Of a DNA stretch of 22,005 nt, positions 2,037 through 16,853 are shown piece after piece. Under the pieces are notes generated by a model. It had not been told where the DNA came from. It was given only the letters and a program-made list of their open reading frames with translations, and made no database searches. How positions within the stretch are numbered: position 1 is the first letter of the stretch; every line of letters starts with the position of its first letter. A program made the position numbers and the translations under genes. The stretch comes from a virus, in the IMG/VR virus record IMGVR_UViG_3300047546_000781, positions 1 through 22,005 of that record. One strand, given 5' to 3'.

Positions 2037-4265
2037 TTAAATCAAAACTTGAACTGCGTTGAATGTGTTCGCGCCGTCTGGGCGGCCCGACATGTAGTTT
2101 CCAGAGTCGTAGCCAACCCAGTGGACAACACCCTCTTCATCCAAGGCCATCCAAGCATTTTCAAGAGTAGAGCCTGAGTGAAAGCCTTGAGCAGAAATAT
2201 GTCTGAGATGGTTGCCAGAGCGATTTGCAAAACCGACTCGACCAAACTGGGTCTGAGGAGAAGCTGTGTTCGGGCGACCCAAGCAAACGTTTTGATGACC
2301 AGCAGTAAAGGCAGCGCCGTTGCGGCGGTTGATACGGTCATTCTTGCTGGCGTGCGCCATGACAATGACGTTGTTGTAATAGTAGGTGGTGCTGGTGGTC
2401 TGACCAGCCCATTGAACATCAGATACCCACTGAACCTTCTGGTTGAGGACTGGCACAGCACGATCAGTTGTGTCGCCCAAACCAAGCAGGCCAACGTTAT
2501 TACGGCCCCATGTGTAGAACGTGCCGTCTTCGCACAGGGCGGCAGACGAACCGTAAACGCCACCGCCGCACCAGCAGTCGATGACGCGCTTGTTGGTATC
2601 TACGCCAATCACGTTCACCTGTGTCGGAGTAGAACGAGAAGTTGCAGAGTTGTCGCCCAACTGACCATAACCGTTGTAACCAAACGAATACAAACGACCA
2701 TCAGCACGCAAGGCGAGCGTCCAGCCGTTGGCATTGGAAGAGTCGCCACAAATTGCAACTTTCACGACCGCGCCGCCAATGTTGCACAGCGTAGGAGTAG
2801 AAAGGTTGGTTACAGTGCCGTTGCCGCACTGACCGCTGGTGTTCAGGCCGCAAAGGTAAAGCTGATTGTCATTGGTGATGAAGGCAACGTGGTAACCGCC
2901 AGTGCGTACACAGCGAACGTTTTGGTTGAAAACGGTGATCTTTGTGGGGGTCAAACGGTTGGTCGTGTCGCCATGGCCTAGCTGACCATAGTTGTTGTAG
3001 CCCCAAGAGTAAACATCTCCGTCTTCCATGAGTGCGTAAACGGAAAGAGTGCTCGCGCCATGGAACTGAACATGCAGATAACGCACTGGGCCAGCATCAA
3101 TTGGGAAATCGACTTTACGGAAGAAGGAGCGACTCACAATGCCGCCGTCACCTTGCTGTCCGTTTACACCGTAGCCACAGCTATAAACAGTGCCGTCTGT
3201 TGTCACAACGGCGGTGTATTCGTAAGCTGAGACGACCTGCTTGATGTCAAACATTTCGTCTTCGGAGAACTCAATACCTTCGTTTGTGTAGTTGAACAGT
3301 GGAGGGCGCACAGGAATGCGAGCAGTTCCACTGATGTCCCCATTTCGACCATTTGATGGGGAACCCCAAACCCAAAATCCGCCATCAAATGCGACTACGG
3401 AGCCACCGCGATATGAATATCCGGGTTCTTGTGCAACGTCCCAAGTGCCTGCGTTGGCTGCAACAGGGAAAGTTGTGGCGTCTTCGATGTAGTTGCCGAG
3501 GCGGTTAGTTGGGACTGTGGAGATGGTGACCGGGGTAGCCGCTTGGCTGCCGTCGGGTTGGGTGTACTTGCCGCCTTTGTTGACGGAAAGGTCGGGGTTC
3601 ATGCCGACGTAGTTGTTGTTGAGCGCCTTGATGCGGGTGTGCGGTTTTGCGCCGGAGAACTGCCAAGACGGAGCGCCGCTCTTGATGGTCAGTTGCGAGC
3701 CTTCTGCGCCAGCGCCAAGGCGAGCCTGAGCACCACCAGCGAAGACGACCATGTCGCCGTTGGTGGTCATGGGGGTTGTCAGTGCAGCCGTGATAGCGGC
3801 AATGTCGACCACAAACTCAACTTCAGCGCCATCGCAGTAGACCCAGCCGCGCTGGCCTGCGTTGATCTGCACATAGTCGTTTTGAGTTGAGGTCTTGATT
3901 CGGATGGGGATGGTGAGTCGGTTGTCGATGACGCTTGACCATCCGGTGTTGGGGGCCGTGACGCTCACGTTGCTGGCGGTGAAAGTACCTGCTTGTGGCT
4001 TTACGACAATGACTTCTTTTTGGACTTGGTCGGTTGACAGCGTGATGGCTGCCGTGCCGGGAGCGGGTTGCATGATGATTTCCGCAGGACGTGCGGCTGT
4101 ATCAATCAACTCCAAAAGAGCGTCTGCGCCCATGAGGCGCTCGACTGCCGTGGACAGATAAACAAGGTCTCGCGGAGTTGCGGACGATGCGCCAGTGGCG
4201 GCGGCTAGAGACGTGCCACGGGTCTTGATGGTTTCTACGAGTTCGCGAAGCGATGCTGTTGACAT
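2037..4265 (-). CDS. Tail fibre with RCC1-like beta-propeller repeats
   Basis: The 742-aa product starts at an ATG with an AAGGAG site. Residues 1-60 are helical (MSTASLRELVETIKTRGTSL onward) and look like a virion-attachment segment. Residues 60-300 are Thr/Val/Gly-rich and probably beta-structured. From about residue 355 to 720 at least five RCC1/regulator-of-chromosome-condensation-type repeats can be read: VYSCGYGVNGQQGDG, VYSWGYNNYGQLGHG, LYLCGLNTSGQCGNG, LYSFGYNGYGQLGDN and FYTWGRNNVGLLGLG. Most of these are followed by a T/S-R-S/L-TPT-like segment. RCC1 repeats form a seven-bladed propeller in the known family. Here they probably make a receptor-binding head. The gene lies downstream of the portal and two small structural genes. 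Fibre assignment is inference from length, composition and context; the repeat family is read directly from sequence. Confidence 0.85.
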   Translation of the reverse strand: MSTASLRELVETIKTRGTSLAAATGASSATPRDLVYLSTAVERLMGADALLELIDTAARPAEIIMQPAPGTAAITLSTDQVQKEVIVVKPQAGTFTASNVSVTAPNTGWSSVIDNRLTIPIRIKTSTQNDYVQINAGQRGWVYCDGAEVEFVVDIAAITAALTTPMTTNGDMVVFAGGAQARLGAGAEGSQLTIKSGAPSWQFSGAKPHTRIKALNNNYVGMNPDLSVNKGGKYTQPDGSQAATPVTISTVPTNRLGNYIEDATTFPVAANAGTWDVAQEPGYSYRGGSVVAFDGGFWVWGSPSNGRNGDISGTARIPVRPPLFNYTNEGIEFSEDEMFDIKQVVSAYEYTAVVTTDGTVYSCGYGVNGQQGDGGIVSRSFFRKVDFPIDAGPVRYLHVQFHGASTLSVYALMEDGDVYSWGYNNYGQLGHGDTTNRLTPTKITVFNQNVRCVRTGGYHVAFITNDNQLYLCGLNTSGQCGNGTVTNLSTPTLCNIGGAVVKVAICGDSSNANGWTLALRADGRLYSFGYNGYGQLGDNSATSRSTPTQVNVIGVDTNKRVIDCWCGGGVYGSSAALCEDGTFYTWGRNNVGLLGLGDTTDRAVPVLNQKVQWVSDVQWAGQTTSTTYYYNNVIVMAHASKNDRINRRNGAAFTAGHQNVCLGRPNTASPQTQFGRVGFANRSGNHLRHISAQGFHSGSTLENAWMALDEEGVVHWVGYDSGNYMSGRPDGANTFNAVQVLI
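2106..3203 (-). repeat. RCC1-like repeat block within the tail-fibre gene
   Basis: This segment encodes roughly residues 355-720 of the fibre. The recurring unit is hydrophobic-Y-(S/L/T)-(C/W/F)-G-x-N-x-x-G-Q-(L/C)-G-(D/H/N)-G, followed by a short TxxSxPT-like stretch and a blade of 30-40 residues. Five units are clear, and one or two degenerate ones are likely at each end (FWVWGSPSNGRNGD near residue 297, VVHWVGYDSGN near residue 713). Together these would suit a six- or seven-bladed propeller. Confidence 0.75.
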
Positions 4266-9890: not shown

Positions 9891-10081
9891 AATGGCAGGG
9901 CATGGCATGAGGCGAAGGCCGTCGGCGGGATGGGGTCTCCCCCCGGGGGTGCGCCCATGGGACGCGCCTTGCGGTGCATGAAGCGTGCATCTGCGAGGCT
10001 AAGTCGTTGATTTTGCACGGTTTTCGTCTCCCATCGAGGGACTTTGCGGTGGCTCGCGTGCCCCTGCGTTTCGCACGAGTG

Positions 10082-10110: not shown

Positions 10111-10152
10111 GGCGCTTACGCAATCATGACGCGGGCTTACGGCGCACGTCGT

Positions 10153-10201
10153 CCTCCCAGAGGGAGGAGGAGGGCGATTGGGGTCAGCCGGTTCGGTTGA
10201 C
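10153..10201 (+). repeat. Two-hairpin leader module, copy A
   Basis: Hairpin 1 is CCTCCC-AGA-GGGAGG (10153-10167). After a 15-nt spacer comes GTCAGCC (10183-10189), which can pair with GGTTGAC (10195-10201) across a 5-nt loop with one G-U pair, giving hairpin 2. The same layout recurs at 10246 and 12671. It lies upstream of the first rightward gene. A transcript-borne control element, for example an antitermination site, is one reading, but there is no direct evidence. Confidence 0.55.
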
Positions 10202-10245
10202 AGTTCGGTCAGCCGTTCCGGCACACGCTCCGGCGTGCGCCTGAT

Positions 10246-10282
10246 TCCCCCAGAGGGGGATAGGGGGCAGTTGGAGTCAGCC
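10246..10282 (+). repeat. Leader module, copy B
   Basis: Hairpin TCCCCC-AGA-GGGGGA (10246-10260) is followed by a 15-nt spacer and GTCAGCC (10276-10282). The spacer length and AGGNGGGC...TTGG pattern match copy A. The stem sequence differs while the pairing and AGA loop are kept, which points to selection for structure. The second hairpin is weaker here (GCC/GGC only). A further isolated GTCAGCCGTTCCGG repeat lies at 10208-10221 between copies A and B. Confidence 0.55.
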
Positions 10283-10298
10283 ACTTCCGGCAACGGTC

Positions 10299-10318
10299 GT
10301 GTCACCCGCATGTGACAC
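10299..10318. promoter_or_regulatory. Operator-like perfect inverted repeat
   Basis: GTGTCAC-CCGCAT-GTGACAC has 7-bp perfect arms and a 6-bp spacer and ends 24 bp before the ATG at 10343. It is placed where a repressor could block an early promoter. GTGTCACA recurs at 19202-19209 in the integrase promoter, and related arms form the inverted repeat at 11392-11417. The binding protein is unknown; the XRE-type product at 20427 is a candidate. Confidence 0.55.
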
Positions 10319-10342
10319 ACAACGGACTCGAAGGAGAATGCT

Positions 10343-10720
10343 ATGTCCTCAATCAAACTCGCCAACCTCAAGGCTTCCGACCTCATCGCGCTCGCCAAGG
10401 GCGCGACCTCTGTCGCCGACATCGACCCCGTCGTCGCGGAGTTCGAGCGTCGCATCACCACGCGCACCGCGAAGGCCAACGCCGCCGCGTCCGCAGGCAA
10501 GGGCGTGCAAGCCCACGCGAGCATCCTCGCCAACGCGAACGCCAACCTCGCCACCGTGCGTGCAATGCGCGACGGCTTCGCCGCTCCTGCGCCTGTCGCG
10601 ACGTTCACCGCCGAGCCAGTCGCCAAGGCCAAGCGCACCCGCAAGGCTCCCGCAAGCGCCCCTGCGTTGAGCGCAGACGAGTTGGCTCTGCTCCGCTCGT
10701 TCCTCGCCAAGCTCGCCTGA
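10343..10720 (+). CDS. Small basic Ala-rich protein, possibly nucleoid-like
   Basis: The 125-aa product has a good ribosome site (GAAGGAG, 7 nt before ATG). Residues 1-85 are helical and Ala-rich (MSSIKLANLKASDLIALAKG onward), with a central EFERRITTRTAKANAAASAG. A hinge near residue 95 is strongly basic (KAKRTRKAPASAP), like H1-type or H-NS-linker sequences. The C-terminal helix is SADELALLRSFLAKLA. It is the first gene rightward of the control region and is closed by a strong terminator, so it forms its own short transcript. A DNA-binding or early regulatory role is inferred from charge and position; no family is recognised. Confidence 0.75.
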   Translation: MSSIKLANLKASDLIALAKGATSVADIDPVVAEFERRITTRTAKANAAASAGKGVQAHASILANANANLATVRAMRDGFAAPAPVATFTAEPVAKAKRTRKAPASAPALSADELALLRSFLAKLA

Positions 10721-10737
10721 TCGCGTAGCGCCCACGA

Positions 10738-10763
10738 CCCCCGCTTCGGCGGGGGTTTTTTTT
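10738..10763 (+). terminator. Intrinsic terminator after the first early gene
   Basis: The stem CCCCCGC/GCGGGGG has a TTCG tetraloop (the very stable UUCG type in RNA) and is followed by eight T's. It starts 17 bp after the stop at 10720. Only 31 bp separate the T-run from the next ATG (10795), so there is little room for a separate promoter and the downstream genes may depend on read-through or antitermination. Confidence 0.92.
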
Positions 10764-10794
10764 CGTCTGTTCGCAACCACGAAAGGAGCATCTC

Positions 10795-11004
10795 ATGCAG
10801 ACACAACACCAACGCCGCATCGCGGCTCAAACCCGTCAGCTTCTCGCTCTTCGCCGCGCAGACACGCTGCACGACGACGACAACTTCTATGCCTTCCTCG
10901 CGACTGGTGCGTTCGACCCGCCAGCCGCAGACACGTTCGAGGTCGACACCAACGAAGCCGTGACCGCCATGTCGGTCGCATTCACCAACGCAACCAAGGA
11001 GTAA
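10795..11004 (+). CDS. Small hypothetical protein
   Basis: The 69-aa product has a strong AAAGGAG site 6 nt before ATG. The N-terminus is basic and Gln/Arg-rich (MQTQHQRRIAAQTRQLLALR), and the rest is acidic (DTLHDDDNFYAFLATGAFDP). No motif is recognised. It is the first gene after the terminator and is followed closely by the next gene (4-bp gap), so it starts a tight cluster of small unknown early genes. Confidence 0.7.
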   Translation: MQTQHQRRIAAQTRQLLALRRADTLHDDDNFYAFLATGAFDPPAADTFEVDTNEAVTAMSVAFTNATKE

Positions 11005-11008
11005 CGCC

Positions 11009-11254
11009 ATGAGCACCTCAGTCGCGGTCGCAGATGCGACCAAGTTTTACCAGCGTGCGCTGTTCGCAGCACTCAAGGCACGCGAAGAAGCCGTCCGAGA
11101 CGGCGACACGGAGATGCGAGCCATCCTCGATGAGCGCATCGCCTACACGCAGGACTGCATCAAAGCGGTCAAGTTCGTGGGCAAGACGGGCATGTCCCCG
11201 GTCGACGCCTTCGCGTTCTACGGCATCAACATCCAGAATGGAGGCCGACTGTGA
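11009..11254 (+). CDS. Small helical hypothetical protein
   Basis: The 81-aa product has an AAGGAG ribosome site. It is predicted helical: two helices near residues 8-30 and 35-58 (TKFYQRALFAALKAREEAVR; MRAILDERIAYTQDCIKAVK). The tail is GMSPVDAFAFYGINIQNGGR. Its stop overlaps the GTG start of the 41-codon gene (GTGA). I do not recognise it. Confidence 0.7.
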   Translation: MSTSVAVADATKFYQRALFAALKAREEAVRDGDTEMRAILDERIAYTQDCIKAVKFVGKTGMSPVDAFAFYGINIQNGGRL

Positions 11255-11376
11255 GCGTGCACATCGTCTACCAAGACCGGCTCGCGTTTGGTGAGCGCTA
11301 TGCGTTCTACCGTGCCCGCGAACAAGTCGGAACCATCCGTGCGCTTTACCTGCTTTGGGTCGCACGTTCCATGTGA
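11251..11376 (+). CDS. Very small protein, GTG start
   Basis: A GTG codon at 11251 overlaps the preceding stop (GTGA) and has GGAGG 6 nt upstream. The reading frame codes for 41 residues, MSVHIVYQDRLAFGERYAFY and on, ending LLWVARSM. It is basic and aromatic-rich with a hydrophobic C-terminal end (IRALYLLWV). Translational coupling and the ribosome site support it; the size limits certainty. Function unknown. Confidence 0.55.
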   Translation: MSVHIVYQDRLAFGERYAFYRAREQVGTIRALYLLWVARSM

Positions 11377-11391
11377 AACACTGTCCCGTAT

Positions 11392-11417
11392 GTGTGACAT
11401 GTGCTATCCTGTCACAC
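11392..11417 (+). promoter_or_regulatory. Operator-like inverted repeat over a possible promoter
   Basis: GTGTGACA (11392-11399) and TGTCACAC (11410-11417) form perfect 8-bp arms with a 10-bp spacer. The spacer holds TGCTATCCT, an extended -10-like element (TATCCT at 11405-11410). The -35 region (about 11382-11387, TGTCCC) is poor. The site lies in the 68-bp gap before the lipoprotein-like gene, the largest gap in this cluster, so a repressed internal promoter is plausible. Confidence 0.5.
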
Positions 11418-11444
11418 TTACGAGACACAACCAAGGAGAAAACC

Positions 11445-11618
11445 ATGCGACTCATCGCAACTGTCATCGCTGTCTTGCTCGTGGCAACCACCCTGACCAT
11501 CGGCCTCGTCAACTTCGCCATCGGTTGCGGTGAGCCTGAGTACCACGCCGACGGAACATTCGTCACCGGCGAATGCTTCGTCATCCCATACACACCCGTG
11601 AAAGGAACATGGAAATGA
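11445..11618 (+). CDS. Small membrane or lipoprotein-like protein
   Basis: The 57-aa product starts at an ATG with AAGGAG 7 nt upstream. It opens with a short basic end and a hydrophobic run (MRLIATVIAVLLVATTLTIG), followed by NFAIGC. AIGC fits a loose lipobox, so the protein may be a lipoprotein with Cys28 as the lipidated residue, or simply membrane-anchored. The mature part is short (GEPEYHADGTFVTGECFVIP) with a second Cys. Small phage-encoded lipoproteins often act in superinfection exclusion; that role is inferred here from size, early position and its own operator-like site. A lysis (spanin) role is less likely since the hydrolase is far away. Confidence 0.7.
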   Translation: MRLIATVIAVLLVATTLTIGLVNFAIGCGEPEYHADGTFVTGECFVIPYTPVKGTWK

Positions 11619-11956
11619 TCGCCGATCAACCACCACTACCAGTCGAGCAGGCAGTCATCGCCTACTACGAACAAGCCACGCCTCAACGCATGACGAGCAT
11701 CATCTTCCGAGACGGTGCACGCTACGAACTCAAGCTCGCGCCCAACAGGTTCGAGAAGAGTCGCATGGTGTGCGTCATCCTCGACAACAAGAAGCTCGCC
11801 GCCATCGTGTGGGCAACCAACGGAGACGACCACTTCACGATGTCGCCTTCACCCAAGGGCAACACCATCAAGACCGGCGAGTACGCAGACTTCGTCTTCG
11901 ACGCATGCGCTCACCTCATCACCACTGATCGCGAAAGGAAGGAGAAAGCAAAATGA
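11615..11956 (+). CDS. Hypothetical early protein
   Basis: The product is 113 aa from the ATG at 11615, which overlaps the previous stop (ATGA) and has AAAGGA 8 nt upstream. An ATG at 11609 would add two residues but lies too near the ribosome site. The chain looks like a small alpha/beta domain (VEQAVIAYYEQATPQRMTSI; RFEKSRMVCVILDNKKLAAI; VWATNGDDHFTMSPSPKGNT) with a charged tail (RERKEKAK). Its stop overlaps the next start. No family is recognised. Confidence 0.7.
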   Translation: MIADQPPLPVEQAVIAYYEQATPQRMTSIIFRDGARYELKLAPNRFEKSRMVCVILDNKKLAAIVWATNGDDHFTMSPSPKGNTIKTGEYADFVFDACAHLITTDRERKEKAK

Positions 11957-12234
11957 CTGACGACACCAAGCAACGCTGGTGGGCGTGGCACAAGGCAAAC
12001 CCTCACGTCTACCAACTCTTCGAGCGGTTCACATGGGAAGCCATCAAGCTAGGTCACAAGCACCTGTCCGCTTGGCTCATCGTTAACCGCATCAGGTGGG
12101 AGACGAGCATCGTCACGAAGGGCGACGACTTCAAGATCAGCAACGACTTCATCGCCTACTACGCTCGCCTGTTCATGCACTACCACCCCGAGCACAAGGG
12201 GTTCTTCCGCATCAAGCGCCTCAAGTACGAGTAA
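11953..12234 (+). CDS. Conserved phage protein of unknown function
   Basis: The 93-aa product starts in an ATGA overlap with AAGGAG 9-10 nt upstream. The sequence NPHVYQLFERFTWEAIKLGH, followed by RIRWETSIVTKGDDFKISND and YYARLFMHYHPEHKGFFRIK, follows a pattern I recognise from many phages of proteobacteria: NPxVYxLFxRF...RWE...G.DFK.N...YYAR.F...P.H.GFF..R. In those it is annotated only as hypothetical. It is helical and rich in aromatic and basic residues, which suits nucleic-acid or protein binding. Function is not known. Confidence 0.8.
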   Translation: MTDDTKQRWWAWHKANPHVYQLFERFTWEAIKLGHKHLSAWLIVNRIRWETSIVTKGDDFKISNDFIAYYARLFMHYHPEHKGFFRIKRLKYE

Positions 12235-12252
12235 CCAACCAAGGAGAACATC

Positions 12253-12309
12253 ATGATCGAGTTCATCATCGTCACCGCAATCGTCATCGCTCAAATGCTG
12301 GGGAGGTAA
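12253..12309 (+). CDS. Possible 18-residue hydrophobic micropeptide
   Basis: ATG at 12253 is preceded by AAGGAG at ideal spacing, in the same CCAACCAAGGAGAA context as neighbouring true starts. The frame codes MIEFIIVTAIVIAQMLGR and ends in TAA at 12307-12309, five bases before the next ATG. The peptide is nearly all hydrophobic, so it would insert in the membrane. It may instead be a leader that couples translation to the next gene, or a relic of a longer gene. The strong ribosome site is the main support. Confidence 0.4.
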   Translation: MIEFIIVTAIVIAQMLGR

Positions 12310-12314
12310 GCGCC

Positions 12315-12698
12315 ATGACAATTTCTGTCACCCTCAACGGCGAGAACGCCAACCTCACATTCGATATTGAGACGACGCTCAACGAGTACCGCCTTCGCCA
12401 ACTCATCCAAGATGCGGCGACCGGCAACGACCAAGACACCATCACCATCCGGTGGGGTATCGACGACGTGAAGGCTCAGTACGACACCATGTTCACGGAC
12501 TGGGACGTCGAGCCTGAGTGCGGCCCCCTGAACGACGACGACTTCCGTCAAATTCTGCGCTTCGTCAGTAAGGCTCACGATGCCAACGTGGGCATCAGTT
12601 GGGAGGTCGTCGAAGCCCACATCGACAGCTTCATCCGCAATCGGATGGTGTCACGCGCCCGCCCGCCTGTCTCTCCAGAGGAGAGGGAGAGGGCATAA
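12315..12698 (+). CDS. Hypothetical early protein
   Basis: The 127-aa product has GGGAGG about 8 nt before the ATG. It starts with a beta-rich part (MTISVTLNGENANLTFDIET), followed by a helical and acidic middle (GNDQDTITIRWGIDDVKAQY; CGPLNDDDFRQILRFVSKAH). Its C-terminus is Arg/Glu-rich (VSPEERERA), and those last codons also form hairpin module C. No family is recognised. It lies just upstream of the AAA+/VWA pair. Confidence 0.7.
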   Translation: MTISVTLNGENANLTFDIETTLNEYRLRQLIQDAATGNDQDTITIRWGIDDVKAQYDTMFTDWDVEPECGPLNDDDFRQILRFVSKAHDANVGISWEVVEAHIDSFIRNRMVSRARPPVSPEERERA

Positions 12699-12718
12699 CC
12701 CATCAGCCAACCGGCTGA
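12671..12718 (+). repeat. Two-hairpin leader module, copy C
   Basis: Hairpin 1 CTCTCC-AGA-GGAGAG (12671-12685) spans the last codons of the preceding gene. After a 17-nt spacer containing GAGGGC comes hairpin 2, TCAGCC-AACC-GGCTGA (12703-12718), 6 bp perfect. It has the same order, AGA loop and TCAGCC element as copies A and B near 10.2 kb. It lies 34 bp before the AAA+ gene start. Confidence 0.55.
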
Positions 12719-12752
12719 CTTCACCCTAACCCTAACCATGAAAGGACATCCC

Positions 12753-14693
12753 ATGCTTCCACTTCACGAAGCGGTTTCATTGTTGCGTCGTGTCGATGCG
12801 ATGCAGGCAGACGAGAAGCGATCCAAACTGCGCGAACTCTTCACGAGTTCCGTCGTTGAGAACGCATCGACTCAGGTCAAGGCGAGCTTCGCTCGTGCAG
12901 TAGGCAAGACCATCGGTCAAGCCACCGACCTCTTGCCCATCGGCGCACTCGTTGGCGGCATCGTCACCTCCTATGAGACTGGCGACTCCGACCAAGTGAT
13001 TCGCAACATCACCGATGCGATCACCGACCCTGCGTCTTACGCTGTTCGCAACTCACGCTCCAAATCAGGCTACGGCTACGGTCACCACGTCGCCCTGTCC
13101 GACATGGACGCAACCGCTGGCGGTCACCGACTTGCCAACTTCACCGTCACTCAAACCATCACCCCAACCAAGGAGAACTCTATGGACATCAACCAACTCG
13201 CTGACCTCGTGTGTCAGTTGTCTGCCGTGCTTGCCAAGGACGCATCGTTCGACGGCAAGATCAGCGCGTCCGACCTCGACGCATCCGACACCCGTGCATG
13301 CGACGCCATTGCCATGGCGAAGGGTCTCAAGGCGGAGCAGTGCGATGCCCTGCGCTCGGCTGTCGCTGTCGTCAACATGAACCGATCAGTCGATGAGCGT
13401 GCCAACGTCGTCGTCTCAGACGAGGTTCGTAACATGGTGGGTAGCTCATCTGGTGAGCCTGCCCCGGCTGCCGTCTCGTCTCAGCCAGCCCCGGAGCGCA
13501 TCATGATCGACGGCGTCCTTGCTCGTGCCGTTGACTCGTTGCTCGGTCAGGCGACCGGCGGTAAGGCCACGTCCATCGAGGCCACCCTCGAAGACCTGTA
13601 CAAGTTGCAGGTCAAGTCGCGTGAGCTTGCCGACCAGTTGTCCCGCGCCAGTGCTCGTCCCGTTGCGGTCATCCCGACTGGCGGTAGCCAAGCCGTGGAC
13701 GGTGCGACCCTCACCTACGAGGTTGTCATGCGCCAAGCCGCCGACCTGTTCAAGAACCCCAAGACCGGCAAGACCATGGCTCAACTCAAGTTCGACATCC
13801 CAACCCTTGTGTGGAAGGATGACAAGGGCAACGTCGTGCAACACCCAATGGTTCCCGCACACGATGAGAACTACCAGTTCCGCATGACCCATGTGCTCAA
13901 GCTGGCGACTGCGTTTCTCATGAACAAGAACGTGTGGGCACACGGACACACCGGCACTGGTAAGACGACGCTGTTCGAGCAGTTCTATGCCCGCTGTGGA
14001 TTTCCTGTGTACAGATTGAACCTCGACTCGAACCTTGAGCGCTCCGACCTTGTCGGTCAGACCTCCCTTGCCGAGGACAACGGCGTGACCGTGTCCAAGT
14101 TCAACGAGGGCATCCTCCCGCAAGCGATGACTCAGCCTTGCGCACTCATCCTTGACGAGATCGACGCCGGTCGTCCCGACATCCTGTTCACGATTCAGCG
14201 TGCGACAGAGGGCAACGGCTTGATGCTGACCGAGGATGGCGGTCGTCTTGTGCGTCCGCACCCGCTGTTCCGCTTCTGCGCTACCGCCAACAGTCGTGGT
14301 CAGGGCGATGAGTTCGGCGTGTATGCAGGTGTGCGTCCGATGAACACCGCCATGCTTGATCGCTTCGGTGTCATGATCGAGGTCAACTACCTTGAGCGTG
14401 ACGAGGAAGCCAACTTCCTTGCCAAGGCTTACCCGAACCTGACGCAAACTGTCGTGACGCAGTTGACCACGTTCGCCAAGCTCATTCGTGAGGCGTTCAC
14501 CAATGGCGAGATCAGCCTGACGCTATCGCCTCGTGGTCTCAAGTCCATCGCTGAGACCTATGCGTTCTTCGACCCACTGCTTGGCACTGCCAAGGCGATG
14601 GAGATGGCGGTCGAGATGGTCGTCATCGACCGCGCCACCATGGACAACCGCCAACGTGTGCTTGAGTTGCAAGAACGTGCCTTCAAGGCTTGA
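12753..14693 (+). CDS. CobS/MoxR-like AAA+ ATPase
   Basis: The 646-aa product starts at an ATG with AAAGGA 6 nt upstream; an ATG at 12738 lacks a site. The ATPase core is in the C-terminal half: Walker A GHTGTGKTT near residue 398-406, Walker B ALILDEID near 464-471, sensor-like CATANSRGQGDEFGVYAGVR near 509-528, and Arg finger in MLDRFG. The ERSDLVGQ and EGILPQAM motifs are typical of CobS and MoxR/CbbQ proteins, which work with a VWA partner in remodelling or metal insertion. The partner is the next gene. The first 143 residues (12753-13181) are separate in character, with Ala/Gly-rich helices. They are followed by an internal ribosome site and ATG in the same frame at 13182. Cobalamin synthesis is unlikely because no CobN or pathway gene is present. 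Confidence 0.9.
   Translation: MLPLHEAVSLLRRVDAMQADEKRSKLRELFTSSVVENASTQVKASFARAVGKTIGQATDLLPIGALVGGIVTSYETGDSDQVIRNITDAITDPASYAVRNSRSKSGYGYGHHVALSDMDATAGGHRLANFTVTQTITPTKENSMDINQLADLVCQLSAVLAKDASFDGKISASDLDASDTRACDAIAMAKGLKAEQCDALRSAVAVVNMNRSVDERANVVVSDEVRNMVGSSSGEPAPAAVSSQPAPERIMIDGVLARAVDSLLGQATGGKATSIEATLEDLYKLQVKSRELADQLSRASARPVAVIPTGGSQAVDGATLTYEVVMRQAADLFKNPKTGKTMAQLKFDIPTLVWKDDKGNVVQHPMVPAHDENYQFRMTHVLKLATAFLMNKNVWAHGHTGTGKTTLFEQFYARCGFPVYRLNLDSNLERSDLVGQTSLAEDNGVTVSKFNEGILPQAMTQPCALILDEIDAGRPDILFTIQRATEGNGLMLTEDGGRLVRPHPLFRFCATANSRGQGDEFGVYAGVRPMNTAMLDRFGVMIEVNYLERDEEANFLAKAYPNLTQTVVTQLTTFAKLIREAFTNGEISLTLSPRGLKSIAETYAFFDPLLGTAKAMEMAVEMVVIDRATMDNRQRVLELQERAFKA
13170..13184 (+). promoter_or_regulatory. 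Internal ribosome site and in-frame ATG in the AAA+ gene
   Basis: AAGGAG (13170-13175) lies 6 nt before an in-frame ATG (13182). The context CCAACCAAGGAGAA is the same as that before true starts at 11445 and 12253. It suggests a second, 503-aa product starting MDINQLADLV, or an ancient gene boundary where the upstream gene lost its stop. Confidence 0.5.
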
Positions 14694-14717: not shown

Positions 14718-16853
14718 ATGAGTAACGATCTTTCGTTCCTTCCGCCGGACGACCCCGACATGGATCAGCCATCCGTCTCAGGTCGTGACTTCGAGAATGG
14801 CACTCGCGCTGCCGTGCGCACGCTCTCGTCTCAGTTCGACACGGACGTCGTGTTCGCTGGCGACGGTGCTTGCACCAACGGCAAGCGCGTGACCCTGCCA
14901 GCCAATGCGCCTGACAAGATGCTGACCAAGCGCCAAGCGCACGTCGGTCGAGGCTTTGCCAACCACGAGTCACTGCACAACCTGCTGACCGACTTCGATG
15001 CGGGCTTGCCCAAGTTTCGTGAGTGGGGCACGACCGGACGCACGTTGACACTGCACTTGGCACAAGCCATCGAGGATGTGCGCATCGAGAACGGTGGTGC
15101 TCGTCTGTACCCCGGGATGCCAAAGTCGATTGACAAGACCGCCGAGTTCGTCTGCCGACGCTTCGCCGAGAAGACGTTCAAGGAGAACCCCGACATTGCC
15201 AAGGATATGGGCGCTGTGCTCCCGCTCGCCATAACTTGGGCAGGTCGTCTGCGCATTGGCTACCCATCGCCCGTCATTCGCGTTGCGTTTGATGCACTTG
15301 GTGAGGACGTTCGCAAGCGTGCCGAGCAGGTGGTCGATGTCATCATGACCTTGCCGCATGGTGTCGAGGGCATCGGTCAGGTCAACCGTAGCGAGGCATA
15401 CAAGGGCTGTCGCATGGGTCTCGAACTCGCCAACCGCATCGGCAACGAGGTCGCCAAGGAAGTGGCTGATGAGGAAGAGCGCCAACGTCAAGGCCAAGGT
15501 CAGGGTCAAGGCAATGGTCAGGGTCAGGGTCAAGGTCAAGGTGGTGGACAAAACGGTGGGCAAGGTGGTGACGGCTCGTCTCAGGCAGCTGGTGGCAGCG
15601 GAGGCAACGGTGACACCGTCTCAGATCAGATGGCGAAGGGTGACGGGTACAAGGACTCGTCGCAGGAAGCCAAGGGCAACGGTGGTGCGCACGGTGCGAC
15701 CAACTCGCAAGCCCAAGAGGTGGGTAAGGTGACGGGCGAGTCTCGCTCGATTGACCCCAACCTCGACGAAGGTGTTGTCGAGTTGATGACCGAGGGTGTT
15801 GCGACCAGCAAGGACTATCGTCCCTACACGAGATCGTTCGACGTGTGGACTGACAAACGTGATGGCACACTCAAGACTGCGCTGTATCACAACAATGGTC
15901 AGGCGCTGTATGCGCACGAGAAGTCTCGCGTTGTCGGCTCGCTGGCTACGATGCGTCGCAAGTTGGAGCGTGCGCTGATTGCCAAGGACACACGCCAATG
16001 GGAGCAGTCGCGTAGTGGCAAGCTCGACATCCGTCGTCGTGGCGTTGGCATCATGAGCGGTAGCGATCTGATCTTCAAGCGCAAGTCTGACGGTGACGAT
16101 CTCAATGCGGCGGTGTCGATCTTGATTGACCTGTCCGGCTCGATGGCAGGCGACAAGGCGCATGTTGCAGGGCAGTCGACCATTGCGTTGTGTGAAGCGT
16201 TTGCTTCGACTGGCGTTCCGCTTGAGGTGCTCGGTCACTATACGCATGGCTTGCCTTATGACATGCGCAATCAGATCGCCAAGGAAACTGACGAGCACTT
16301 GCGTGATGACGATGGCAACTATGTGGTACAGGCTGATGGTTCTTATGCGAAGAACCCCAACGTGCACAACTATGACCGCACCGATGGGGTGACGATGCTT
16401 GTGTTCAAGTCGTTCGATGAGCCAATGACTCAAGCGCGTAGCGCACTAGGCATGATTCCGCACATGACGAGTGGTGCGAATGCCGATGCTGATGCCATCA
16501 TGTATGCGGCAGAGCGCTTGCTTGAGCAGAAGAATGATCGTCGCATCTTGCTTGTGATGGCTGACGGTTATCCCGCATGGCATTCGAGTGGTGGCAAGAA
16601 AGCCAACTATCGTCGCACTCGTGATGCTGTGCAGTGGTGTGAGACGAAGGGCATCAAGTGTGTAGGGATCGGCATTCAGAGCGACGCTGTTCGCCAGTTC
16701 TTCCCTCGCAATGTTGTGCTTCAGAGCGTGGCTGATCTGGGCAAGACGGTTCTCGATCAGGTTGCACGTCTCGTCTTGGGTGAGCGCTTCCGCGTTGACA
16801 ACAAGGACTTGATTGCATCTGACAAGGATCGCGCTCGTGCAATGGCCCGCTAA
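14718..16853 (+). CDS. CobT-like protein: HExxH domain, Gly-Gln linker, VWA domain
   Basis: The 711-aa product starts at an ATG with AAGGAG upstream, 24 bp after the AAA+ gene. Residues 60-130 hold FANHESLHNLLTDF (HExxH at 83-87) and, further on, QAIEDVRIENG (119-124), a spacing and pattern like metallopeptidase zinc sites. Residues 258-284 are a Gly/Gln/Asn linker. Residues 460-690 are a VWA domain: MIDAS DLSGS (471-475), a Thr in TSGANADADA (about 584) and Asp in MADGYPAW (about 616). CobT-type proteins pair with CobS-type ATPases; the gene order here matches that pair. The VWA part probably binds the ATPase or a metal-bridged target. Whether the HExxH site is catalytic is unknown. Cobaltochelatase activity is unlikely without CobN. 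Confidence 0.88.
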   Translation: MSNDLSFLPPDDPDMDQPSVSGRDFENGTRAAVRTLSSQFDTDVVFAGDGACTNGKRVTLPANAPDKMLTKRQAHVGRGFANHESLHNLLTDFDAGLPKFREWGTTGRTLTLHLAQAIEDVRIENGGARLYPGMPKSIDKTAEFVCRRFAEKTFKENPDIAKDMGAVLPLAITWAGRLRIGYPSPVIRVAFDALGEDVRKRAEQVVDVIMTLPHGVEGIGQVNRSEAYKGCRMGLELANRIGNEVAKEVADEEERQRQGQGQGQGNGQGQGQGQGGGQNGGQGGDGSSQAAGGSGGNGDTVSDQMAKGDGYKDSSQEAKGNGGAHGATNSQAQEVGKVTGESRSIDPNLDEGVVELMTEGVATSKDYRPYTRSFDVWTDKRDGTLKTALYHNNGQALYAHEKSRVVGSLATMRRKLERALIAKDTRQWEQSRSGKLDIRRRGVGIMSGSDLIFKRKSDGDDLNAAVSILIDLSGSMAGDKAHVAGQSTIALCEAFASTGVPLEVLGHYTHGLPYDMRNQIAKETDEHLRDDDGNYVVQADGSYAKNPNVHNYDRTDGVTMLVFKSFDEPMTQARSALGMIPHMTSGANADADAIMYAAERLLEQKNDRRILLVMADGYPAWHSSGGKKANYRRTRDAVQWCETKGIKCVGIGIQSDAVRQFFPRNVVLQSVADLGKTVLDQVARLVLGERFRVDNKDLIASDKDRARAMAR
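15489..15569 (+). repeat. GGTCAG/GGTCAA hexamer repeats coding a Gly-Gln linker
   Basis: Tandem hexamers of the form GG(T/C)CA(A/G) run through most of this stretch and code for GQGQGQGNGQGQGQGQ, then GGGQNGGQGG. The repeat is in frame and likely varies in length by slippage without breaking the gene. It joins the HExxH region to the rest of the VWA protein as a flexible linker. Confidence 0.85.

Follow-up and report, generated by a model that had tools for sequence, protein, structure and literature searches.

Three leader hairpins carry a mirrored third strand

The 22,005-nt stretch of viral DNA analysed here (the window) carries three copies of a short hairpin whose 3′ flank contains an exact mirror of the purine strand of the stem. 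Because the flank mirrors the stem in this way, a single strand is able to fold as a triple helix. We consider it about evenly probable that the copies represent an element acting in cis in the gene leaders of CRP-810-type phages of Alphaproteobacteria, the group to which the window belongs, and that its sense strand is arranged as an antiparallel intrastrand triple helix of the purine motif. The triplex geometry itself is well supported by the sequences: in all three copies, a pyrimidine strand (Y) is followed by AGA, the purine strand (R), one nucleotide and the mirror strand (R′).

10152-10174, plus strand: copy A, triplex motif TCCTCCC-AGA-GGGAGG-A-GGAGGG (Y 10152-10158, loop AGA 10159-10161, R 10162-10167, R′ 10169-10174)
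10183-10201, plus strand: second hairpin 3′ of copy A, GTCAGCCG-GTT-CGGTTGAC, TCAGCC included
10246-10267, plus strand: copy B, triplex motif TCCCCC-AGA-GGGGGA-T-AGGGGG; the gene1 ATG lies 88 nt downstream
10277-10282, plus strand: TCAGCC element 3′ of copy B, without a clear second hairpin
12671-12692, plus strand: copy C, triplex motif CTCTCC-AGA-GGAGAG-G-GAGAGG; the likely cobS start, 12753, lies 73 nt downstream
12703-12718, plus strand: second hairpin 3′ of copy C, TCAGCC-AACC-GGCTGA

A first-pass annotation had placed stems with AGA loops at 10153, 10246 and 12671, and we re-located them with the same coordinates and parts (stems 10153-10158/10162-10167 in copy A, 7 bp if counted from 10152; 10246-10251/10255-10260 in copy B; 12671-12676/12680-12685 in copy C). 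The G-rich spacer, described there as 15-17 nt, measures 16 nt in A, 16 nt in B and 17 nt in C; the mirror within it had been missed. As also proposed, TCAGCC opens a second hairpin in copies A and C (at 10184 and 12703, respectively), and only a weak one follows copy B. Copy C overlaps the 3′ end of an ORF at 12315-12698.

A scan of the entire window, plus and minus strands, for the Y/loop/R/mirror order returned copies A, B and C only. By sequence, their Y-loop-R-loop-R′ order and their triads (G.G:C, A.A:T and T.A:T) are those of purine-motif intrastrand triplexes (PIT, or TM class II). Chance origin is disfavoured, with 57 distinct elements in real related sequence and 8 in shuffled controls (about 2.8 Mb), nearly all of the latter having 5 triads. 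Shuffle-controlled RNA folding, a check suggested in the first-pass annotation, bears out copies A (z = -3.5) and C (z = -3.3) against dinucleotide shuffles; copy B, at z = -0.3, is unremarkable by energy alone, a measure that is blind to triplexes. A search of the whole window against Rfam at gathering thresholds gave zero matching families.

All three strands covary across the phage family

Our family sample comprised 80 portal-bearing contigs of about 530. The site is shared by relatives whose terminase identity is as low as 56-61%, and the element has at least 5 perfect triads at 34 of 42 non-redundant loci. Most other loci have 3-4 triads or one mismatch, and just 3-4 triads are left in CRP-810, L216 and L309. 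Across the family, stems have fully diverged (CCCCC, CCTTTC, CTCTC, CTTTTCC and CCCCTCC, among others) and R′ changes in step. Among 40 distinct modules, which come from related lineages and are not independent draws, the third-strand base facing G is G in 156 cases, A in 3, and T or C in none; the base facing A is A in 45 and T in 14. For the heteropolymer copies, the mirror score is 153, compared with 79.4 ± 8.2 when third strands are permuted between copies (maximum 111 in 5,000 permutations).

These data also bear on ordinary RNA secondary structure, in which the purine-rich flank would re-pair with the pyrimidine strand (slippage or a switch) or with an upstream strand to give a longer, bulged hairpin. 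Such pairing is possible in some copies, including copy A with GTCGTCC, L285 with CACCT/AGGTG, and L289. Direct-repeat identity in the heteropolymer copies scores only 91, however, against 153 for the mirror, and R′ is no more complementary to the 5′ flank than expected by chance (4.50 versus 4.41 ± 0.15). Furthermore, the third strands of L261 and L263 carry T in place of the A seen in L269, L285, L294 and L305. This exchange preserves the triad, but a T that faces A in R′ is unable to pair with T in Y, so that base pairing to the pyrimidine strand would be lost. It therefore favours a triplex over re-pairing, which we regard as very improbable. G.T wobbles are almost lacking in the triad zone, versus 67 in 507 pairs in the second-hairpin region, in a set whose detection favours strict pairs.

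The constant parts of the element could instead point to a binding site at which a phage or host protein reads the loop and flank, whether for autoregulation by the gene1 product or as a replication or packaging signal. The loop is purine/A-rich and pair-closed in all copies, usually C-RRA-G, the spacing from loop to third-strand end is nearly constant, and the gene1-leader element sits between terS and gene1. Stem and third strand nevertheless vary freely so long as the triads hold, which argues that the stem sequence is not read, and we consider a protein site improbable. A packaging signal near terS would leave the cobS-leader copies unexplained.

The first-pass annotation had seen selection for structure in stem bases that differ between copies while pairing is kept. 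Family-wide covariation of stem and third strand strongly supports that claim and extends it: these phages rewrite all three strands and keep the triads, a rare case of comparative evidence for selection on the triple helix itself.

The element occupies fixed leader sites before gene1 and cobS

Copies A and B precede a small ORF, gene1, and copy C a cobS-like gene, in the following setting.

10122-10139, plus strand: upstream box of gene1 leaders, a candidate promoter region (family form AATCATATCAAnnnYTTA; window form AATCATGACGCGGGCTTA)
10148-10154, plus strand: conserved heptamer GTCGTCC, immediately 5′ of the gene1-leader element
10343-10720, plus strand: gene1, a 125-aa ORF 3′ of copies A and B
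10736-10757, plus strand: strong intrinsic terminator immediately 3′ of gene1, with a GC stem and T8
12753-14693, plus strand: cobS-like AAA+ ATPase gene, 3′ of copy C
14718-16853, plus strand: cobT-like gene, next after the cobS-like gene

Orientation is fixed throughout the family, with the element on the sense strand. It is carried by the leader of gene1, the first early gene, and in many genomes a second copy is carried by the cobS leader; the RRA-loop copies with at least 5 triads in near-complete relatives number one or two, all at these two sites. The start codon of gene1 lies 69-97 nt from R (about 103 nt in a single genome) and that of cobS 50-76 nt, narrow ranges that support the leader position originally proposed from the window. 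The sequences thus establish geometry, three-strand covariation, sense orientation and leader position before gene1 and cobS. In relatives, the gene1 position holds a small ORF of 103-161 aa, and searches with gene1 gave no family match. The second-hairpin region of gene1-type leaders beats shuffles on average (mean z = -2.3), and the second hairpin is weak or missing in several cobS-leader copies.

The upstream box, 20-45 nt 5′ of the element in relatives' gene1 leaders and not present before cobS copies, may be a promoter; its pattern matched 35 viral stretches. A scan for sigma-70-like promoters around the elements showed no excess over shuffles. By eye only, we spotted TTGACT-17-TTATAC 5′ of the CRP-810 cobS copy.

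Promoters of the N4 virion RNA polymerase are short-stem hairpins with a 3-nt purine-rich loop, on the template strand, and transcription runs the other way. The phage element shares the short stem and the 3-nt purine-rich loop, but a hairpin promoter of this type is disfavoured, as the orientation is opposite, with genes 3′ of the hairpin, and neither CRP-810 gp35 nor other large proteins matched a polymerase family; a separate Pfam genome search had no positive control. The CRP-810 family paper makes no mention of RNA polymerase, promoter, hairpin or terminator.

The module, gene1, a T-tailed terminator and a long co-directional operon follow one another in the window, in CRP-810 and in most relatives. 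This order recalls HK022 put (putL and putR), an early-leader element of two stems, and a nascent two-stem leader RNA might likewise ride RNA polymerase past the gene1 terminator into the early operon. In putL, a third strand follows the 3′ strand of the stem I hairpin after a short linker (PMC9378689), and deleting this RNA strand halves activity. Put acts alone on E. coli RNA polymerase, by way of the zinc-binding domain of the β′ subunit, and its triplex is a minor-groove one in a more complex fold, without the mirror purine code; in the phage element, by contrast, the matching follows a purine-motif (reverse Hoogsteen) code and second copies lie between genes. Two stem-loops in an early leader are seen in copies A and C, weakly in B, and not in several cobS leaders, although the second hairpin is a key part of the likeness to put, and some relatives have no visible terminator 3′ of gene1. 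Antitermination of this kind, argued by analogy, is in our judgement unlikely.

The element differs from bacterial triplex repeats

The TM_ECO/BoxC/PIT elements (Hoyne and Maher; Holder et al. 2015, PMC4666352) are bacterial intrastrand triplex motifs of the purine type, class II C-G-G, with the consensus CCCTCNCCC N3-6 GGGNGAGGG N3 GGGNGAGGG in many near-identical copies. The phage elements share their order on a single DNA strand (Y, loop, R, short loop, mirror R′) and their triad code, and a search for such motifs would catch stems of at least 6 with short loops. The bacterial motifs, however, are near-identical 9-triad intergenic repeats; they show no strand bias, have not been found in phages and have no reported effect on RNA polymerase. 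The phage elements have 4-7 triads, purine/A-rich loops, fixed leader sites, a fixed sense orientation, and diverging stems with third-strand compensation, in one or two copies per genome (three in the window). Their different sequence, low copy number and fixed orientation set them outside the TM_ECO/BoxC repeats.

That bacterial intergenic repeats belong to the same triplex class (PMC4666352) lends some weight to a host repeat (REP- or BoxC-like) captured by phage, and the first-pass annotation had named a common host REP-like repeat as a finding that would overturn its reading. The module pattern matched 74 stretches in 84,980 species genomes (one genome per species; the phage's host may not be among them), with zero AGA-loop mirror elements beside TCAGCC. 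As none of the 74 is a module, and the element is syntenic and covaries inside the phage family, a host origin is scarcely credible.

Transcript or displaced DNA strand

Which molecule folds, RNA or non-template DNA, and in what role, we infer from these features. We favour a role in the transcript leader, where the triplex would set the downstream gene's output in cis. A hairpin of 5-7 bp whose loop is short and purine/A-rich would be followed by a 0-5-nt turn and a third strand, folding back on the purine strand via G.G:C, A.A:T and T.A:T triads, with a second hairpin usually next. The likeliest sub-mechanism, itself doubtful, is a locked 5′ or intercistronic structure that protects or processes a segment of mRNA or tunes how it is translated; antitermination of the put type ranks next. 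Stability triple helices of the PAN/MALAT1 ENE type are triplexes of the U.A-U kind that lie near the 3′ ends of RNAs in eukaryotes and their viruses. They too are transcript triple helices and may protect; the phage element differs in its purine motif and 5′-leader position.

RNA is held to be unable to adopt the purine-motif triple helix. Semerad and Maher (1994; cited in PMC4666352) are reported to have found that triplexes of this motif fail to form with RNA strands, and this weakens the transcript reading and points to DNA. That the leader transcripts hold a genuine RNA triple helix of the purine motif (G.G-C, A.A-U and U.A-U), family-wide and acting in cis on expression, is a tentative proposal. 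At the DNA level, G-rich RNA might stay on the template while the displaced non-template strand folds into a purine-motif triplex, stabilising an R-loop and leading to a polymerase pause or replication priming. Purine-motif triads are DNA chemistry (PMC4666352), and the element offers what an R-loop needs, namely Y-R-R′ order on the sense strand and a G-rich RNA. The near-lack of wobbles in the triad zone also fits DNA, though the triad requirement explains it too. Moreover, C-GAA-G and C-AAA-G loops are not usual stable RNA tetraloops, whereas TTCG is frequent in these genomes' gene1 terminators. Against this, the narrow start-codon distance and the promoter-less-looking cobS copies better fit a transcript element, and E. 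coli PIT elements have shown no effect on RNA polymerase; we hold folding in DNA to be somewhat unlikely.

Phage leaders as test objects for intrastrand triplexes

Literature searches turned up no relevant report of triplexes in the leaders of phages. Bacterial intrastrand triplex motifs have been known for decades, to our knowledge without an assigned function, and we know of no previous comparative evidence for selection on the third strand itself. The window and its marine phage relatives offer test objects that are natural, varied and compact and that sit at defined sites in leaders, and a cultivated host exists, as CRP-810 grows on Roseobacter strain FZCC0198. The cellular action of triplexes, as DNA or RNA, is therefore directly testable.

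Three intrastrand triplex motifs

On re-inspection, the three modules described in the first-pass annotation as hairpins with a G-rich spacer match that description, and in each the spacer is non-arbitrary: its final block is the exact mirror image of the second block, not its complement.

Modules in the window (position; pyrimidine block, loop, purine block, linker, mirrored block)
Copy A, 10152: CCTCCC-AGA-GGGAGG-A-GGAGGG
Copy B, 10246: TCCCCC-AGA-GGGGGA-T-AGGGGG
Copy C, 12671: CTCTCC-AGA-GGAGAG-G-GAGAGG

Purine-motif intrastrand triplex motifs combine pyrimidine, purine and mirrored purine blocks on one strand. Because a single strand carries all three blocks here, copies A-C are such motifs, a geometry that we consider established; the third strand could lie antiparallel on the hairpin purine strand via G.G:C, A.A:T or T.A:T triads. 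A scan of both strands, across all 22 kb, found this arrangement only at copies A, B and C. The earlier proposal of selection for structure was right and indeed understated, given the family-wide covariation of stem and third strand. An ORF (12315-12698) overlaps copy C at its 3′ end, where the last codons encode the purine block; this ORF has no match in the examined part of the relative L002, though L002 keeps the element.

Covariation of the third strand

We surveyed 2.76 Mb, on both strands, for hairpins that have a stem of at least 5 bp closed by a C-RNA-G loop (R, purine; N, any base). Consecutive triads number 0-2 in 157 of the 189 distinct hairpins and 3-6 in the other 32. Family elements, all on the sense strand, make up 31 of these 32; the last is a chance hairpin. 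The 40 distinct modules represent about 20 purine-strand sequences but come from related lineages and so are not independent draws. In these modules A is faced in the third strand by A 45 times and by T 14 times, never by G or C; G is faced by G 156 times and by A 3 times, never by T or C. Some of the modules first came to light in the triad scan; the synteny list (42 loci) is less biased. The 30 modules with a purine strand other than pure G score 153 for the mirror, versus 79.4 ± 8.2 (maximum 111 in 5,000) with flanks exchanged between modules and 72.6 ± 7.8 with letters shuffled within the flank, linker length being free (0-5) equally in modules and controls. Three-strand covariation is likewise established.

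In one of the rival DISCRIMINATING folds, the flank would re-pair with the pyrimidine strand, demanding a direct repeat and no A-for-T exchange. The flank is instead a mirror (direct-repeat identity score 91 versus 153 in the 30 modules), and several lineages show A-to-T exchanges, e.g. GAGTG (L263) versus GAGAG (L269) at the same site. Pairing with the upstream strand into a longer bulged hairpin would demand complementarity to the 5′ flank, which is at chance (4.50 versus 4.41 ± 0.15). Alternative pairings are possible in some copies, copy A included, and may form locally.

Conservation among relatives

The window, a 22,005-base IMG/VR record, matches Roseobacter phage CRP-810 in its portal (about 69-71%) and large terminase (about 57-59%). 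CRP-810 is the founding member of the CRP-810-type family, phages mostly with integrase that infect roseobacters, SAR11 and Sphingomonadaceae (PMC11288001). From the terminase genes at ~9.9 kb the structural genes extend leftwards, in a region that also encodes a 742-aa protein with RCC1-like repeats (2037-4265, -); early genes run rightwards from 10.3 kb, a 125-aa ORF (gene1) first and cobS- and cobT-like genes among them. Terminase and portal searches gathered ~100 viral loci; 531 portal-bearing stretches exist.

All copies are kept in close relatives, among which the copy C strands already change in concert. Distant relatives carry elements with very different stems at the equivalent site, between terS and gene1.

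Elements in the window and viral relatives
Copy C site, window: CTCTCC/GGAGAG/GAGAGG
Copy C site, L002 (CobS identity 81%): CTCTCCC/GGGAGAG/GAGAGGG
Copy C site, L004: TCTCTCC/GGAGAGA/AGAGAGG
terS-gene1 site, L231: CCTTTC-AAA-GAAAGG-C-GGAAAG
terS-gene1 site, L259 and L262: CTCTC-AAA-GAGAG-TAG-GAGAG
terS-gene1 site, L261: CCTCTC-AGA-GAGAGG-G-GGAGTG
terS-gene1 site, L285: CTTTTCC-AAA-GGAAAA-G-AATAGG
terS-gene1 site, L278: CCCCTCC-GAA-GGAGGGG-TT-GGGGAGG
terS-gene1 site, L294 and L296: GCCCTTC-TGAAA-GAAGGG-CT-GGGTTG

An element with at least five perfect triads is present in 34 of 42 non-redundant loci having the region left of terL; most others have 3-4 triads or a single mismatch. The pyrimidine strand is lost in L313. 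CRP-810 carries the element in both leaders (triads 4/4 and 3/4).

Leader site and neighbouring sequences

The element occupies the leader, on the sense strand, an orientation and site that we take as established; its purine strand is 69-97 nt (once about 103) from the gene1 start and 50-76 nt from that of cobS or another downstream gene. Copy A is an additional upstream copy; near-complete relatives have only one or two RRA-loop copies genome-wide. Downstream of most gene1 copies, and of some at cobS, there is a second hairpin; G.U accounts for 67 of 507 pairs in this region, and almost none occurs in the triad zone. After gene1 comes a T-tailed intrinsic terminator (window 10736; CRP-810 419-450; also most relatives).

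Sequences common to gene1 leaders and absent at cobS copies
Window 10122-10139: upstream box AATCATATCAAnnnYTTA
Window 10148-10154: heptamer GTCGTCC

The block that they delimit (10122-10154), deeply conserved family-wide, is a candidate promoter or start-site region; it does not resemble sigma-70 promoters. Three box-positive far relatives (L326, L332, L337) keep the upstream box without the triplex element and have a hairpin, GAAC-TTC-GTTC, then TGGG, a possible replacement. The element and the cobS start are separated by an A/C-rich, unstructured stretch containing TAACC-type repeats (window 12720-12745, ACCCTAACCCTAACCATG; also in cobS leaders of L212, L216, L259, L262 and L263), possibly a translation enhancer. 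Just upstream of terS, the window (9920-9966, CCGTCGGCGGG...) and relatives have a further conserved GC-rich stretch, a possible promoter, terminator or packaging signal.

Known systems and possible role

As a motif the element belongs to the PIT/TM class, though it is distinct from the TM_ECO/BoxC repeat in sequence, strand bias, copy pattern and phage context; it matches no Rfam family. As a by-product, the pattern scan turned up two bacterial contigs that carry perfect 9-triad BoxC/TM-like motifs (L203:910, Sedimenticola; L166:7306, Gammaproteobacteria). HK022 put resembles the element in layout, and its stem I likewise includes a third strand; the functional analogy drawn in the first-pass annotation is a possible one.

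The element is real, conserved and well delimited. The folding molecule and its role are inferred, and two indications as to the molecule point opposite ways: DNA is favoured because purine-motif triplexes are reported, in work cited in PMC4666352, to exclude RNA, and the transcript because the element sits in leaders beside an RNA-like hairpin. We rank first a transcript-level role in cis, in which the element might, tentatively, serve protection at the 5′ end or between cistrons, processing or translation, or, with lower probability, put-like antitermination. A role on the non-template strand or in an R-loop seems doubtful, if slightly less so than antitermination.
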